From NCBI GenBank assembly GCA_945875545.1, contig CAMCKZ010000025.1, positions 1 through 36,717 of the forward strand: 36,717 nt of DNA, read 5' to 3'. Positions 6,872 through 16,381 of the stretch are shown here, in pieces. A program made the translations under genes and the position numbers. Source of the stretch: Polyangium aurulentum. GTDB taxonomy: Bacteria; Myxococcota_A; Polyangia; Polyangiales; Polyangiaceae. The notes beneath the pieces are model-generated. The model was not told the DNA's origin. It ran no database searches and was given only the letters and a program-made list of their open reading frames with translations. Each line of letters starts with the position of its first letter. The first letter of the stretch is position 1.

Positions 6872-7810
6872 TTACGGGAGCGCCGGCAACGGACCACCGT
6901 AGCTGACCATGGCCTCGAACGCCCGAAGGCGCTCGGCTAGCGAGGATTTCTCCAGGGAAAGAAGTCGATCCGGGCCGAGCCCTTCGACGCCGAAACTTGC
7001 CACCGTGGACGCTATGACCATGGCTTGGCGCATGGCCACCCGGTCGGATCGGTCGGATCGGCCTTGCGCGGCCAAAACACCCAGCAAAGCGCCCGCAAAA
7101 CTGTCGCCCGCGCCCGTGGGATCGCGCAGAACTTCGAGGGGGTAGGCGGGGACGAAAAAGATGCCGTCGTCGTCGAAAAGCGCCGCGCCGTGCTCACCTT
7201 TTTTGATGATGACGCTCTTTGGACCCATGGCCCGAATGGCGTCGGCGGCTTTGCGCAACATTCCCTCGCCCGTGAGGTCTTTGGCCTCTTCGTCGTTGAT
7301 GCTCACCACATCGACTTGACGCAGCAGTTTTTCGAGCGTTTTGCGCTCCGTGTGTATCCACAGATTCATGGTATCGGCGACGACGAGCCTCGGGCGCTCG
7401 ACCTGCGCAAGCACATCGAGCTGGAGGGCCGGATGAATGTTGCCCAGGAGCAGGTACGGAGAAGTTCTGTAACTATCTGGAATCTTTGGGTGAAAGTCAG
7501 CAAAAACATTCAGCGCCGTGTGAATGGTTTCGCGGCTGCTGAGGTCTGCGGCGTAGCGCCCATGCCAACGGAAGGTTTTGCCTTGCGCGTGCTCGACGCC
7601 GCTGATGTCGATGCCGCGCTCTTGCATTTGCTGAAGAACGGCGGGCGGAAAATCGCTGCCGACGACGCCCACGAGGCGCACCGGGCTGAACATCGAGGCG
7701 CTGATCGCCGCGTACGTTGCCGCGCCGCCGAGGACGTCATTAAAAGTGCCGTAGGGCATTTCGAGGTCGTCGAAGGCCATCGACCCTACGATGAGAACAT
7801 GTTCTTTCAC
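6872..7810 (-). CDS. PfkB/ribokinase-family carbohydrate kinase
   Basis: This 312-residue cytoplasmic kinase has the fold of ribokinase, adenosine kinase and fructokinase, and should phosphorylate a sugar or nucleoside hydroxyl using ATP. Visible signatures are the early GGAATYAA (28-35), the middle IND-E-EA block (171-175) and the ATP site/catalytic loop DPTGAGDSFAG (230-240), in which Asp236 is the expected catalytic base. The length is normal. The start is GTG at 7810, supported by GGAG six bases upstream; MKEHVLIVGS then matches the usual first strand. The substrate cannot be told from sequence. It lies 19 bases after guanylate kinase in a minus-strand run and is probably co-transcribed with it. 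Confidence 0.92.
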   Translation of the reverse strand: MKEHVLIVGSMAFDDLEMPYGTFNDVLGGAATYAAISASMFSPVRLVGVVGSDFPPAVLQQMQERGIDISGVEHAQGKTFRWHGRYAADLSSRETIHTALNVFADFHPKIPDSYRTSPYLLLGNIHPALQLDVLAQVERPRLVVADTMNLWIHTERKTLEKLLRQVDVVSINDEEAKDLTGEGMLRKAADAIRAMGPKSVIIKKGEHGAALFDDDGIFFVPAYPLEVLRDPTGAGDSFAGALLGVLAAQGRSDRSDRVAMRQAMVIASTVASFGVEGLGPDRLLSLEKSSLAERLRAFEAMVSYGGPLPALP

Positions 7811-7829: not shown

Positions 7830-8519
7830 TTACGAGGAAATGGCCGTGTGATCCGGGACGATCACGTCGTGGCGAAGAAGGTATTCGGCGAGACCCGCGC
7901 GGCGCGATCGGCGCGATCGTTCGGCGACAATAATGGAAGCGAGCGTCTCGAAAGCGCGGTCGATTTGGTCGTTGACGACGAGGTAATCAAAGAGTGCGTA
8001 GTTTGCGATCTCGCGTTTTGCGCCGGAAAAACGCCGGGCAATCGCTGCCTCAGGTTCGCTGCCGCGGCCCCGAAGACGGCGCTCGAGTTCGACCATGGAG
8101 GGGGGCAAAATGAAGATCGGGACGACGTCAGGGATGCGCGCGCGAATTTGACGCGCGCCCTGGTAATCGATGTCGAAAATGATGCCGGAACAATCGGAGT
8201 CTTCTTCGGCACCAAGGATTTCGCTCATGGAGGTGCCGTAATAATTGCCGTGAACCTCGGCCCACTCCAAAAACGACCCGCTTTGCACCTTGGCGCGAAA
8301 GGTTTCGTGATCGGTGAAGCGGTAATGCACGCCGTCGGTTTCGTTCGCGCGAGGTGCCCGCGTGGTGTGCGAGACGGAAAAACGCAGCTCGGGAAACCGC
8401 TCTTGAATCATGTGGGTGAGCGTGGTTTTTCCCGCACCGGACGGCGACGAAAGAATCAGCATCAGGAACGGGGGCGCACCCGCGGGCGTGGGAGGCGGAA
8501 TGGAATGGTCTGCGTGCAT
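7830..8519 (-). CDS. gmk: Guanylate kinase
   Basis: The enzyme converts GMP plus ATP to GDP plus ADP and is the essential step feeding GTP and dGTP pools. The protein has the P-loop SSPSGAGKTT near residue 24, the GMP-binding block FSVSHTTRAPR, then GVHYRF, the FLEWAEVHGNYYG segment, and the strand IIFDIDYQGARQI with lid residues RRLRGRG beyond. The length (about 229) is slightly over the usual 205-215 because of a Pro-rich leader and a basic C-terminal extension. I used the ATG at 8519; a TTG at 8528 adds three residues. It sits between a DUF507 gene and a PfkB kinase, and two genes downstream of a RelA/SpoT-like protein. Confidence 0.95.
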   Translation of the reverse strand: MHADHSIPPPTPAGAPPFLMLILSSPSGAGKTTLTHMIQERFPELRFSVSHTTRAPRANETDGVHYRFTDHETFRAKVQSGSFLEWAEVHGNYYGTSMSEILGAEEDSDCSGIIFDIDYQGARQIRARIPDVVPIFILPPSMVELERRLRGRGSEPEAAIARRFSGAKREIANYALFDYLVVNDQIDRAFETLASIIVAERSRRSRRAGLAEYLLRHDVIVPDHTAISS

Positions 8520-8537
8520 GGACGACAAAACCCGGCG

Positions 8538-9050
8538 CTAAATGAGACCGCGCTTGCGTCGAATGCGCTCGCCAATGCGTGCATACTCCACATCCCACTG
8601 GGCGCTGCCTTCGGTCATGTGCCGCATTTGCGTGCGAATTTCCGCGTCAAGGCCATCGTCGACGTTCACGTGTTTGCGAAAGACCGGCGCAAGAAGGCGG
8701 CGCAGTTCGCCGTCGGCCACAAAGACTTCGTCGATGCCGTCGTCTTCGAGGAGCATTTCGACGGTGCGATCAAGCAGGTGGTCGATGGTTTCGTCGCCGA
8801 TGCCGATGCCGTGTTCTTCGGCCACCAGACGACGCACACGATGAAGCTCGCTGCCCGACTTTCCTGTGCGATCGAGGACGTTTTGGGCCTCGTCGTAGAC
8901 GGCGCGCTCCTCCGCTAGGTAGCGTTTTAGTTCGGCCGAAATCGCGAGCTCAGCTTTTTTTGGCGGCTCCGCCTCGATGGCTTTCGCCGTGAGAAGCACG
9001 CGAGCGCCCTCGGCCGCAATGGCATCGACCTTCCCCGGGAAAAGCTTCAT
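8538..9050 (-). CDS. DUF507 family protein
   Basis: This is a 170-residue, highly charged, mostly helical cytoplasmic protein. The opening MKLFPGKV and the later alternating acidic and basic helices, with a GIDEVFVADGELRRLL stretch, match my memory of DUF507, a family found in delta-proteobacteria, Aquificae and relatives with no known function. Two similar halves appear to be present: both end in short helices rich in Arg and Glu (AVYDEAQNVLD and AEIRTQMRHM regions). There is no membrane segment or signal peptide. The start is ATG at 9050. Its position immediately before gmk, with a gap of about 18 bases, suggests co-transcription. The family call is from memory. Confidence 0.8.
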   Translation of the reverse strand: MKLFPGKVDAIAAEGARVLLTAKAIEAEPPKKAELAISAELKRYLAEERAVYDEAQNVLDRTGKSGSELHRVRRLVAEEHGIGIGDETIDHLLDRTVEMLLEDDGIDEVFVADGELRRLLAPVFRKHVNVDDGLDAEIRTQMRHMTEGSAQWDVEYARIGERIRRKRGLI

Positions 9051-9150: not shown

Positions 9151-10266
9151 TCAGCTCTCGCGCTTCGGTTGGATGAGGCGCTGGCTGTCCACGCGATCTT
9201 CTCGGTCGCCGAGGTGAAGTCGGCGCATCACCGCGCGCTTTTGGCGGCCTTTGTAGGCATCGTGGGAGGCCTCGCCCCGTTCATTCGCCTGGTCGGTGGC
9301 CTGGTCCACGAGTTGAAATTCGCAGATGACAAAGCCCGCGCGCCCGAGGCCTGCGGCAGCGGCGGGGGCTGCGGCGAGGAGGTCGTCGGCGAGGCGGACC
9401 GGCATGTCGACGACGAAGTGAATGATGCGGTAATTGCCGGCCGAAAACGAGTTTTCCGTGTTGCCGATTTCTTCGTGCGCACCGACTTGCATATGCTGCA
9501 ACATCGGTGCGAGATGGGGATGGCCTTCGCAAATTTCGCGCAGAGAAAAAATGCTGTTCGTGCTTTGCGCCGGCACCACATAATTGAACGGAAAAAGGTG
9601 TTTCGTCAGGTATTCGAGGGTCGGAAGGAGGTCTTCGGGCGTTCTCGTCACGATGCGAAAACGCAGCTTGTCGTAGACCTGCGCCGCGATGGTTTCTTGC
9701 TTTGAGAGAAGCTTCGTAAAGAGCGAGTCGCGGTTTTTTCGCCCGCCGACAAACTCGACCACGGGCAAACCCTTGGCGAGCATGTGGCCAATGACGCGAA
9801 AGACCTTTTCTTCAACAATTCTAAAGACTTCTTGGTCAGAGAACGGCAGCAAAAAGAGAAGCTCGCGGCCCTCCAAGTGGTGAATGACGTGGATCGCCTT
9901 GAGGATGGTGCACGCGCACGCTTGGCGATGACCTTTCGTGGACGCGAGCAGCAAAAGATCGCGCACCGAGGCCTCTTCGACGGGCTTCGGCACCGGGTAG
10001 TGAAACTGCCGCCGCAGGTACCCGATGGACTCCTGCTTCAAGTGCTGCAGCCGCGCCGCATCGTGTTCGTCGTTGGGATCGAGCTCGTGGGCCCGCAAAA
10101 ATGCATCGACCTCGTCCAGATCCGCGAAATCGAGGCGGTGCCAATCGATGACGGAATCGCCGCGAAGCACCAAGCGCACGGCCTCGAGATCGGCCAGCGA
10201 AAAGCCCGCAAGCTTCTTGAGCCCACCCGGGGGAAGAGAGCCGCCAGAACCAGAAGTGGTCGCCAT
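9151..10266 (-). CDS. RelA/SpoT-synthetase-like protein (TIGR04552-like)
   Basis: The protein has 371 residues and no signal peptide. I think it belongs to an uncharacterised myxobacterial family I know as TIGR04552 (label from memory). Its second half matches the order of conserved blocks in RelA/SpoT (p)ppGpp synthetase domains. GGRKNRDSLFTKLLSK (174-189) corresponds to GR-K-SIY-KM. VYDKLRFRIV (197-206) corresponds to iYDliavRv, with the metal-binding Asp at 199. GNYRIIHFVV (277-286) corresponds to GYQSLHTTV. CEFQL (315-319) corresponds to vEIQI, with the catalytic-type Glu316. GEASHDAYKG (331-340) corresponds to GiAAHW-YK. The N-terminal 165 residues are helical and lack an HD hydrolase motif. 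Whether it makes an alarmone, or only keeps the fold, cannot be decided here. It precedes DUF507, gmk and pfkB in one minus-strand run. Confidence 0.7.
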   Translation of the reverse strand: MATTSGSGGSLPPGGLKKLAGFSLADLEAVRLVLRGDSVIDWHRLDFADLDEVDAFLRAHELDPNDEHDAARLQHLKQESIGYLRRQFHYPVPKPVEEASVRDLLLLASTKGHRQACACTILKAIHVIHHLEGRELLFLLPFSDQEVFRIVEEKVFRVIGHMLAKGLPVVEFVGGRKNRDSLFTKLLSKQETIAAQVYDKLRFRIVTRTPEDLLPTLEYLTKHLFPFNYVVPAQSTNSIFSLREICEGHPHLAPMLQHMQVGAHEEIGNTENSFSAGNYRIIHFVVDMPVRLADDLLAAAPAAAAGLGRAGFVICEFQLVDQATDQANERGEASHDAYKGRQKRAVMRRLHLGDREDRVDSQRLIQPKRES

Positions 10267-12481: not shown

Positions 12482-15400
12482 ATGCGCCCCATTCTGTTGC
12501 CTCGCATTGGCCTTGCGTTCGTGCTTTTTTTCGCCCATGCCGGCCTTTCCGCCTGCGTGCAGCCGTTGGACGGATCGTCGGGTGACTTGCTCGACGACGC
12601 ATCGCCGGTTCCCGACGCGGCCACCGAGGGCGATACGGGGGTGCTCGCCGATGGCAGCCTACTACCCGACGGCGGCCCGGGTACGGATGGCGGCCCGGAA
12701 ACGGATGGCGGCCCGGAAACGGATGGCGGCCCGGTAACGGATGGCGGCCCCGTAAGGGATGGCGGTCCGGTAACGGATGGCGGTCCCGTAAGGGATGGCG
12801 GTCCAGGCACGGACGGCGGTCCAGGCACGGACGGCGGCCCGGTAACGGATGGCGGCCCGGTAGCGGATGGCGGCCCGGTAGCGGATGGCGCGACGAGTGT
12901 CGATGGCTCCGTGGCACCCGACGGCGGATGCAACGCGGGGTTTGTGCAGGGCGGGGGCGGCTGCGTCGACGTCAATGAGTGTGTGGCCGCTCCTACTGTT
13001 TGTGGTTCTTCGGCCCAGGTTGGAACGTGCGGTAACACTTCCGGAAGTTACTCCTGTACGTGCGGCGCGGGCTACGCGGTCAGCGGCAGCGCCGGGGCCG
13101 AAACCTGCACCGACGTGAACGAATGCACCGCGAGCGCAGGTGACGCGGGCGTCAATCCGTGCGGCGGTGGCGTGTGCGCGAACTCCCAGGGGGCGTACGT
13201 GTGCACGTGCCCGAGCGGCTACGCGTTCCAAAACGGCACCTGCACCGACGTAAACGAGTGTACGGGCGCGCAAAACGTGTGCGGAGTGGGCACGTGCGCC
13301 AACGCCCAGGGTACGTATTCCTGCGCCTGCCCGAGCGGCTACGCGTTCCAAAACGGCACCTGCACCGACGTCAACGAGTGTGGCGGCGTGAATCCTTGCG
13401 GCTCGGGCAGTTGCAACAACGCCCAGGGCTCTTACTCGTGCACGTGCCCGAGCGGGTACCAGGCGGCGCAAGCAAATGGCGTCGCAACCTGCGCCGACAT
13501 CAACGAATGCACGGCGAATCCCTCGCTTTGCGCGCCCGGTAGCTGCCAAAACACGCAGGGCACCTTTACGTGCACGTGCGGAAGCGGCTATCGTTTGAGC
13601 GCGGACGGGCGGTCCTGCGCGAACATCGACGATTGCGTTGAAAACCAATACCTGTGCGCCACCACCGGCGGACCGCGACCCGTCGGCCAGTGTGTCGACA
13701 CGCCGGGGAGCTTTTATTGCGCGTGTCCCGGCGGTTTTGCGGCGGCGGCCAATAGCCAGTCGTGCGTCGACGTCGACGAATGTTTGACGGCGTCCCAGTG
13801 CCCCGGCCAATATTGCACGAACACCAGCGGGTCTTTTTCCTGCGCAAGCTGCCCCTCGGGTCAAAGCGTCTCCGGCGGCGGCTGCGTGGATACCAACGAA
13901 TGCGCGGCGGCAACCAATCCGTGCGGCGTCGCGGTGGCAACGTGCGCCAATTTGGTGAATGTCGGGTACACGTGCGGATGCCCAGGCGGATACGTTTCGT
14001 CCGGTGGCGGCACGCCCGTGTGCCAAGACGTGAACGAGTGCCTTGCGAACAACGGCGGATGCGCGCAAAATTGCCAAAATACCCAGGGCGCAAACGTGTG
14101 CACGTGCAACACGGGTTACAGCTTGGGTGGCGATGGCAAGAGCTGCACCGATGTCAACGAGTGCCTCACGAGCAACGGCGGGTGCAGCGCATACGCCACG
14201 TGTGCAAACACCACGGGTGGGCGCTCGTGCACCTGCCAAACAGGCTACAGCGGGGACGGCCTGGCCTGCGCGGACATCAATGAGTGCACGACGAACGCCA
14301 CGCGTTGCGGCGCAAGTTCGTCCGTTGGTACCTGTGCCAATACCATCGGTTCGTATGTATGCTCATGCGGTGCCGGGTACGCGGCTTCCGGCGGCACCTG
14401 TGTGAATACCAACGAGTGCACGGGAGGAACGAACCCGTGCGGGCAAGGGAGCTGCAACGACACCCAGGGTTCTTACACGTGTTCGTGCAACACCGGGTAC
14501 ACGAGCACCACCGCGTCTGCGGGCCCCGTTTGCACCGACACGAACGAGTGCTTGGTCAACAGCGGCGGATGCGCGCAGACATGCACAAATAGTGCGGGTT
14601 CTTTCGCGTGCTCCTGCTCGGCGTATTACACCCTCGCGGCGGACCAAAAGGCGTGCACGGACATCAATGAGTGCCTCACGAGCAACGGGGGGTGCAGCCA
14701 GTACGCAACGTGTACAAATAATGTGGGAGCGGCGGCGTCGTGCGCCTGCCAGACCGGGTACACGGGAACCGGAACGGTGTGCACCAACGTCAACGAGTGC
14801 ACGACCGTTGCAAACGTGTGCGGCGGCACGGCGGCGGGCACATGCACCGATACACCTGGCTCGTACACGTGCGCCTGCAATACCGGTTACGCGTCCGCAA
14901 CGGTCAGCGCTGAAACCGTGTGTCAAGACGTGAACGAGTGCACCGCCGGCACCGCGGGTTGCTCAACAAACGCAACGTGCGCTAACACGATCGGTTCGTC
15001 GACGTGCACCTGCGGCGCGAACCGAATCGGCGACGGAAAGTTTTGCCAATCGGCGGATCAGATTACCGTCGGCGACGACTTTCAGTGCGTGCGCACCACC
15101 GGCGACAGCGTCGCTGCGCGCGTCTATTGCTGGGGCGACAACACGTACGGCCAGCTCGGCGACGGCACGGTCGTGAACCGCAGCTACCCCAGCGTCGTCA
15201 AGCCGGTCGACTTCACGAACATCATCCCCGTGGGCAAAGAGCCGATTGCGGTTCGCGCAGGGGCCGGCTTCGCGTGCGCGACCTTCGCAACATCGTCGAG
15301 CGCGACGAGCCTCGCCTGCTGGGGTGACAACCTCGTTGGGCAGCTCGGCGCAAACGTCAACCTTGCGTACTCGTCGAAGCCACTCGTTGTCATGATGCCC

Positions 15401-16381
15401 CAGTCGTCAACCTTCGTTCCCCTCGCCGCTTCGAGCCTCACCCTCGCGGTCGGTCGTAAGCACGCATGCGCCTTCATGCCCAACTCGGCGATGCTTGCGT
15501 GTTGGGGCGACAACTCGAAGGGACAGCTCGCCGCCAACTCGTCCCAGGGGCAGGGCAACAACACGTACTCATTCTCGTCTTACGCGCGTCCGTGGCTCGC
15601 GCAAAAGGACGCACAGGGCGCGAATTACCTCGTGAAGGAGGTGGCAGCCTCCAGCGAGAACACTTGCGCGATCCTCGCGACGGCGACGGGCACCAATGTG
15701 GTTCGCTGCGCCGGCGCGACGTCGACCTCGCAGGTGGCGGGGCCGCCCTCGGTCATCAACGGGACGACCCCCGCGCTCACCGCCGCGGAGGGCGGGGCGT
15801 GCAATACCTTGAACTATGGCTACGCGTGCGTCACCCAACTCTCGAAGACCGTCGCGCTCGCGGCCATCGGCACCGCCCAGCCAGCGACCCCCGCGATAGG
15901 CCTCACGGCAGGAGCGAATCACTTCGCGGTCATCGGCAACGACTACTGGATCTACAGCTGGGGCAATAACTCGGCTTACACGTTCGGAGACGGATCGAGC
16001 TCGAGCAACACGACGGCGCAACGTATCCAAACGGCGAGTTTCGCGGGCCTGTCGATCAGCAAGATCTTCGCCGGCGGCACGAACGGCTGGGCGATCCGCT
16101 CCGACAACCAGCTCTTCTCGTCGGGAGCCTTCAGCGCCGGACAGATTGGCAACGGGACGGTCAGCGGTTCGCCCGGCGTTTACGGCGCGCGCGCCTCCGC
16201 GGTTTTCGACGGCGCCGCAGGTATCGACCGCACATGCGCCCTCTGGGGCACGACTTCCCCGAGGATTCTTCGCTGCGCCGGTGCCGATACGGGTGCGGGC
16301 TCGAAGGCCAGCCTGGGCACAACGCCCATCGGCGGTGCCGCGCCGAACAACTACTTGTTTAATACGGTATACTGGAACTAG
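12482..16381 (+). CDS. EGF-repeat and RCC1-propeller surface lipoprotein
   Basis: This is a 1299-residue secreted lipoprotein. The signal ends in lipobox GLSAC (Cys25). An acidic Asp/Ala/Gly stretch leads into twelve imperfect hexapeptides of the form PxxDGG (about 66-137), a flexible spacer. Sixteen calcium-binding EGF-like modules follow (about 161-855), each opening with D-[VIT]-[ND]-EC or a close variant and closing with a G-[SG]-[YF]-x-C-x-C-type core. This is the consensus that places Ca2+ between modules and makes a stiff rod. The C-terminal 440 residues contain about seven RCC1-type blades (CWGDNTYGQLGDG, CWGDNLVGQLG, CWGDNSKGQL, then more divergent ones such as YSWGNNSAYTFGDG), so a complete seven-bladed propeller is likely. 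It is probably a long stalk carrying a binding head on the cell surface. A strong terminator follows. Confidence 0.9.
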   Translation: MRPILLPRIGLAFVLFFAHAGLSACVQPLDGSSGDLLDDASPVPDAATEGDTGVLADGSLLPDGGPGTDGGPETDGGPETDGGPVTDGGPVRDGGPVTDGGPVRDGGPGTDGGPGTDGGPVTDGGPVADGGPVADGATSVDGSVAPDGGCNAGFVQGGGGCVDVNECVAAPTVCGSSAQVGTCGNTSGSYSCTCGAGYAVSGSAGAETCTDVNECTASAGDAGVNPCGGGVCANSQGAYVCTCPSGYAFQNGTCTDVNECTGAQNVCGVGTCANAQGTYSCACPSGYAFQNGTCTDVNECGGVNPCGSGSCNNAQGSYSCTCPSGYQAAQANGVATCADINECTANPSLCAPGSCQNTQGTFTCTCGSGYRLSADGRSCANIDDCVENQYLCATTGGPRPVGQCVDTPGSFYCACPGGFAAAANSQSCVDVDECLTASQCPGQYCTNTSGSFSCASCPSGQSVSGGGCVDTNECAAATNPCGVAVATCANLVNVGYTCGCPGGYVSSGGGTPVCQDVNECLANNGGCAQNCQNTQGANVCTCNTGYSLGGDGKSCTDVNECLTSNGGCSAYATCANTTGGRSCTCQTGYSGDGLACADINECTTNATRCGASSSVGTCANTIGSYVCSCGAGYAASGGTCVNTNECTGGTNPCGQGSCNDTQGSYTCSCNTGYTSTTASAGPVCTDTNECLVNSGGCAQTCTNSAGSFACSCSAYYTLAADQKACTDINECLTSNGGCSQYATCTNNVGAAASCACQTGYTGTGTVCTNVNECTTVANVCGGTAAGTCTDTPGSYTCACNTGYASATVSAETVCQDVNECTAGTAGCSTNATCANTIGSSTCTCGANRIGDGKFCQSADQITVGDDFQCVRTTGDSVAARVYCWGDNTYGQLGDGTVVNRSYPSVVKPVDFTNIIPVGKEPIAVRAGAGFACATFATSSSATSLACWGDNLVGQLGANVNLAYSSKPLVVMMPQSSTFVPLAASSLTLAVGRKHACAFMPNSAMLACWGDNSKGQLAANSSQGQGNNTYSFSSYARPWLAQKDAQGANYLVKEVAASSENTCAILATATGTNVVRCAGATSTSQVAGPPSVINGTTPALTAAEGGACNTLNYGYACVTQLSKTVALAAIGTAQPATPAIGLTAGANHFAVIGNDYWIYSWGNNSAYTFGDGSSSSNTTAQRIQTASFAGLSISKIFAGGTNGWAIRSDNQLFSSGAFSAGQIGNGTVSGSPGVYGARASAVFDGAAGIDRTCALWGTTSPRILRCAGADTGAGSKASLGTTPIGGAAPNNYLFNTVYWN
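12677..12892 (+). repeat. Tandem 18-base repeat encoding PxxDGG spacer
   Basis: Twelve in-frame units of 18 bases encode PGTDGG, PETDGG, PVTDGG, PVRDGG or PVADGG. The units differ mainly at codons two and three, in a mosaic pattern suggesting unequal exchange. Copy number could vary between strains and change the distance between the lipid anchor and the EGF rod. Confidence 0.85.
13208..13371 (+). repeat. Recent duplication of an EGF module
   Basis: Forty-four bases at 13208-13251 recur identically at 13328-13371, exactly 120 bases later, covering the end of EGF modules 2 and 3 (PSGYAFQNGTC and the next module start). Identity at silent positions points to a recent in-frame duplication of one module. 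Confidence 0.75.

Follow-up and report, generated by a model that had tools for sequence, protein, structure and literature searches.

TIGR04552 of Myxococcota, a probable divergent member of the RelA/SpoT synthetase superfamily with an altered acceptor pocket

A survey of 2011 divided the RSH enzymes into 30 subgroups and restricted its trees to synthetase-profile hits with E < 1e-5 (PMC3153485). The window, as we call the whole stretch of 36,717 nucleotides from Polyangium aurulentum analyzed here, contains a 371-residue open reading frame on the minus strand (10266 to 9151, starting with ATG) whose product matches the current Pfam synthetase model with an E-value of 2.6e-4. We infer that a family of this kind could, for that reason, have escaped the survey. 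The initial annotation described the product as an unnamed protein. A name does exist: the protein scores 346.6 bits against NCBIfam TIGR04552 (E 1.7e-103, profile positions 2–350 of 352), above the curated cut-off of 125 bits and across the entire model, and it also lies far above the cut-off of the sister model TIGR04562. The two models carry no function and are labelled merely ‘TIGR04552 family protein’. In a full-text literature search, the name TIGR04552 was found only in the mutation table of one study (PMC9888234), the name TIGR04562 was not found, and neither was a discussion of the family’s relation to RelA/SpoT. The family is known by number only, and its kinship with RelA/SpoT is detectable with Pfam in some members.

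The study that lists the name followed six lines of Bdellovibrio sp. NC01 evolving through long coculture with a single prey. Each of the lines survived starvation better, and in one of them a one-base deletion in a TIGR04552 gene rose to high frequency; the relation between this deletion and starvation survival is a correlation only, and other mutations were present (PMC9888234). If most Myxococcota maintain another synthetase-like enzyme alongside Rel, signaling in starvation, development and predation would have to be read differently in these bacteria.

Table 1. Features of the TIGR04552 locus in the window (residue numbers refer to the TIGR04552 protein)
Feature	Position	Strand	Remarks
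TIGR04552 family protein, 371 aa	9151..10266	(-)	SYNTH pyrophosphokinase fold, RelA/SpoT-like, with its own helical N-terminal domain
Helical N-terminal domain (~24-145)	9832..10197	(-)	conserved G36, S38, D41, C119, L122, H126, H130
RelA/SpoT-like synthetase domain (~142-344)	9235..9843	(-)	structure matches, Z 10.8 to 5ded
Donor motif GGRKNRDSLFTKL (174-186)	9709..9747	(-)	K177 and K185 in 71/71; S181 in 70/71
Metal motif VYDKLRFRIV (197-206)	9649..9678	(-)	D199 in 69/70; R204 in 70/70
Rebuilt acceptor loop (~237-286)	9409..9558	(-)	invariant N237 and N272 with an insertion between them; Y/F279; H283 unconserved
Second metal motif and domain end (315-339)	9250..9324	(-)	E316 and Q318 in 69/69; D321 in 68/69; H335, Y338, K339
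DUF507 gene, next downstream	8538..9050	(-)	same order in relatives within the bacterial family
Guanylate kinase gene (gmk), downstream neighbor	7830..8528	(-)	
PfkB-family sugar/nucleoside kinase gene, downstream neighbor	6872..7810	(-)	

Synthetase fold and helical N-terminus

The Pfam model RelA_SpoT (PF04607) aligns with residues 177–341 of the window protein (profile positions 4–111 of 113) at 21.7 bits, below the curated gathering cut-off of 27. The match is not a chance one, because matches to this model occur in 41 of 48 non-redundant relatives and several relatives pass the cut-off in a genome search, three by themselves and three more together with neighboring stretches. When a profile of the family was compared with all PDB sequences, the top matches were RelSeq, YwaC and S. 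aureus Rel (E 8e-5 to 8e-4). Profile-profile alignment with hhalign gave P-values of 3e-11 to myxococcal SAS, 1e-7 to myxococcal Rel and 1e-6 to CapRel-like proteins. The AlphaFold model (pLDDT 79, pTM 0.77) was built on 12 sequences and is of low confidence in the acceptor loop. All 34 PDB entries that Foldseek matched to it with E < 1e-3 are alarmone synthetases. VIA-align superimposes 144 residues on B. subtilis SAS1 (5ded) with a Z-score of 10.8 at 3.0 Å, compared with 5.8 for the best unrelated fold, TdT polymerase. Pfam, profile-profile alignment and the structural model thus concur on a synthetase fold at residues ~142–344. The initial annotation had staked its proposal on the mixed-sheet fold and on superposition of its motifs with the synthetase site; both were looked at, and both hold.

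The N-terminus is helical (residues 24–140) in the AlphaFold model and resembles neither an HD domain nor a known fold. Pfam finds no HD match in the window protein, and a degenerate HD domain was ruled out by hhalign against the HD region of Rel (probability 0.4%, E 0.14). The N-terminal hydrolase domain that defines the long RSH proteins is therefore missing, as had been proposed. When the N-terminus was modeled alone, which gave a weaker model (pLDDT 71), no PDB fold was retrieved; since the best Foldseek E-value is 1.6 and the best VIA Z-score is 3.3, we claim no fold for this region.

Conserved donor and metal sites, rebuilt nucleotide pockets

Five motifs lie at the residues where they had been claimed, in the order and approximate spacing of the synthetases: GGRKNRDSLFTKL (174–186), VYDKLRFRIV (197–206, with D199), GNYRIIHFVV (277–286), CEFQL (315–319, with E316) and GEASHDAYK (331–339). 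The first of these is present in altered form, with its arginine shifted by one position toward the C-terminus relative to Rel (GGRK versus GRxK). In the alignment, K177, S181, K185, D199, R204, E316, Q318 and Y338 are equivalent to K243, S247, K251, D264, R269, E323, Q325 and Y345 of RelSeq. The RelSeq numbering is the established one, and the roles ascribed here to the donor, metal and acceptor residues are those established in the RelSeq and RelQ structures.

Conservation was counted in 71 family sequences. The catalytic residues are invariant or nearly so (Table 1) although the mean column identity is 40%. Both metal ligands are kept, as the initial annotation had it, the one exception being a member in which D199 is replaced by proline, and Y338 is invariant in 69 of 69 sequences. 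The stretch from K177 to D199 measures 23 residues in 69 of 69 members, versus 22 in Rel, and that from E316 to K339 measures 24 residues in 67 of 69, identical to E323–K346 of Rel. The metal Asp and Glu and the pair of triphosphate-binding lysines (K177 and K185) are thus all present. Because these residues and spacings are kept, the donor-triphosphate and metal chemistry looks intact in the family. Catalysis is likely, as K177, S181, K185, D199, R204, E316 and Q318 are essentially invariant.

The nucleotide pockets are different. The arginine that stacks on the adenine of ATP (R241 of Rel and RelSeq) is present in 48 of 48 Rel, SAS and CapRel-like sequences and in 0 of 24 TIGR04552 members, which thereby depart from the (p)ppGpp-making Rel and SAS enzymes proper. 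An arginine usually follows one place later, and because of this shift the canonical position is occupied by Gly or Ser. On the acceptor side, D298 of Rel is replaced by an invariant asparagine (N237), K304 by Ser or Thr, and R327-T328 by a hydrophobic residue followed by Asp; a histidine stands at the H312 position in only 7 of 24 members. The stretch between N237 and N272 is mostly 33–38 residues long, with an overall range of 18–56. Of the acceptor-loop pattern D-Y ... K-x-[NS]-x-Y-x-[SA]-x-H, the base-stacking aromatic alone is retained (residue 279, equivalent to Y308; Tyr in 17 and Phe in 7 of 24), and the family instead follows [QE]-S-x-N ... N-x-F-[ST]-x3-[YF]-R-x2-[HNQ]. With the acceptor side so altered, the label ‘(p)ppGpp synthetase’ cannot be asserted, and with the ATP-stacking arginine absent and the acceptor motif replaced, the protein could merely bind its ligands or could act on different substrates. 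Which substrate fits the rebuilt pocket is a well-defined question that lends itself to testing.

Distribution and gene neighborhood

Of 379 Myxococcota genomes, 229 carry the TIGR04552 gene, with few exceptions as a single copy; it is absent from 14 control genomes of other groups. A RelA_SpoT match above the Pfam cut-off is present in 112 of 114 Myxococcota genomes; the genome of the window encodes one normal Rel besides, 727 residues long with HD and SYNTH domains. Some Myxococcota (eleven loci) carry extra divergent RelA_SpoT proteins of a CapRel-like clade, many of 330–390 residues, besides Rel and TIGR04552.

A tree built from the SYNTH core unites the family in a single clade (support 100/99), separate from the Rel, SAS and CapRel-like sequences and borne on a stem of 2.2 changes per site. 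Where exactly this clade belongs is uncertain because the alignment has 114 columns and the branches are long. The initial annotation had suggested an undescribed branch in Myxococcota: the deep, separate branch is borne out, and its confinement to this phylum is not, as a Bdellovibrio gene bears the same name (PMC9888234). Across 18 genomes, with a 60-residue Rel fragment left out, TIGR04552 distances track Rel distances (r 0.91; 0 of 5000 permutations), which points to vertical inheritance of the main clade. The correlation drops to 0.46 once a deep TIGR04562-like subclade is added. The five loci of this subclade show no co-divergence with Rel, have TIGR04562 as best match in those tested, and possibly represent a separate ortholog group.

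Neither the plasmid search nor the viral-contig search returned a TIGR04552 match. A phage origin was considered and rejected: the only match in a phage collection, MW495066 (‘Microcystis phage MaAM05’), lies amid glyS, secD/secF and peptidoglycan genes. In this 274-kb record, the stretch MW495066.1:118543-129607 holds glyS, secD/secF, mtgA and gatD together with a TIGR04562 member, and the record appears to be a bacterial contig deposited under a phage name.

The TIGR04552 gene and its three downstream neighbors (Table 1) lie on one strand, separated by gaps of 100, 9 and 19 bases, and the DUF507 gene is probably in one transcription unit with the TIGR04552 gene. The DUF507-gmk-PfkB order recurs in nine loci of close relatives and partially in two more. 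A universal gmk operon was ruled out, as every locus examined outside those close to that of the window lacks this order. In seven other loci, from several Myxococcota families, the adjacent or a nearby gene is instead lon, encoded on the strand opposite to TIGR04552 (L083:5499-8153, L004:2141-4570, L094:5493-7919 and four more); Pfam searches in three of these loci verified that the gene is lon. No recurring antitoxin-like partner was seen among the neighbors of the loci examined, and a promoter and terminator scan gave no more than was found in shuffled sequences. Elsewhere in the window, 12482-16381 on the plus strand encodes a secreted-looking protein of 1299 residues with near-identical TDGGP-type repeats at its N-terminus followed by many EGF-like Cys repeats.

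Proposed activity and comparison with known systems

We consider it probable, on the strength of sequence comparison and modeling, that the TIGR04552 protein belongs, on a deep and separate branch, to the RSH synthetase superfamily as a divergent member: an active, chromosomal, housekeeping-type pyrophosphokinase. The reading builds on the computed fold, homology, residue conservation, single copy and main-clade co-divergence with Rel. A housekeeping or stress-signaling role would go with it, as would an acceptor pocket unlike that of Rel and of ordinary small alarmone synthetases. The enzyme would take pyrophosphate from a nucleoside triphosphate, with ATP the most likely donor, and attach it to an acceptor hydroxyl, with D199 and E316 as the usual Asp/Glu metal site and K177 and K185 holding the triphosphate. 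The helical N-terminal domain, in place of the HD hydrolase domain of long RSH proteins, would presumably be regulatory or binding. The retained base-stacking aromatic (Y/F279) makes a purine nucleotide the best candidate for the acceptor. With its rebuilt pocket, the protein may be a second, chemically different signaling enzyme of predatory and soil bacteria. A bolder and less likely version is that the product (a nucleotide or a modified RNA) is made by no known RSH; the acceptor would be new, the donor might not be ATP, and the enzymes would serve a conserved second signaling or modification pathway in Myxococcota and Bdellovibrio.

A narrower form of the main reading, possible though not favored, is an ordinary (p)ppGpp synthetase in disguise, which would supplement Rel as a source of ppGpp, pppGpp or pGpp. 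The fold is nearest to the small alarmone synthetases SAS1 and SAS2, the Y308 equivalent is Tyr or Phe in all TIGR04552 members compared, and in the bacterial family of the window the gene adjoins gmk; guanylate kinase supplies GDP. However, three residues that show no variation among the compared Rel and SAS sequences (R241, D298 and K304) are all changed, H312 is usually changed as well, and the gmk linkage does not extend to other bacterial families. The same losses of the adenine-stacking arginine and the acceptor residues would suit a SYNTH fold that is no longer catalytic, or has been repurposed, and acts as a nucleotide-sensing or nucleotide-binding regulator, as would the invariance of N237, N272 and R349, which have no known catalytic role. 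We regard this as unlikely, because a dead enzyme would be expected to lose some of the two metal ligands and two triphosphate lysines, and these four hardly vary at all in about 70 sequences.

A toxin or defense effector of the toxSAS/CapRel type, acting by tRNA pyrophosphorylation or making (p)ppApp, is less probable again. Such proteins share the superfamily, toxSAS enzymes too have altered acceptor sites, and CapRel structures are among the VIA matches (Z 6.2), but the TIGR04552 gene is single-copy across most of the phylum, its main clade co-diverges with Rel and is separate from CapRel-like proteins, the plasmids searched hold no match, and the neighbors include no conserved antitoxin-like partner. 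Chance resemblance of motifs in an unrelated helical protein is scarcely credible. A single-sequence Pfam score below the curated cut-off, and a one-sequence phmmer search that finds no PDB relative, speak for it, but the profile, fold and spacing evidence all agree, and the fold and profile results effectively refute it.

Among described entities, NCBIfam TIGR04552/TIGR04562 is the same family, with no difference from the window protein, a member of TIGR04552. The CapRel and toxSAS tRNA pyrophosphokinases (7ztb; FaRel2, PMC11559606) share the SYNTH fold and a changed acceptor site; TIGR04552 differs in its phylum-wide single copy, its separate clade and the lack of a visible toxin-antitoxin organization. 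The bifunctional Rel/RelA/SpoT enzymes (1vj7, 7oiw, 5iqr) have the SYNTH motifs in identical order and near-identical spacing, whereas the window protein has no HD, TGS or ACT domain, belongs to a deep clade apart and coexists with a normal Rel in its own genome. RelQ/SAS1 and RelP/SAS2 (5ded, 6ex0, 6ewz) share with it the SYNTH fold (Z about 10 over 144 residues), the metal Asp and Glu, the triphosphate lysines, the base-stacking Tyr, the H..Y-K end motif and the absence of an HD domain. In contrast to these small synthetases, with which it has ~20% identity over the domain, the window protein carries its own helical N-terminus of ~120 residues, and its family combines the loss of the ATP-stacking arginine with Asp-to-Asn and Lys-to-Ser/Thr exchanges and an insertion in the acceptor loop.
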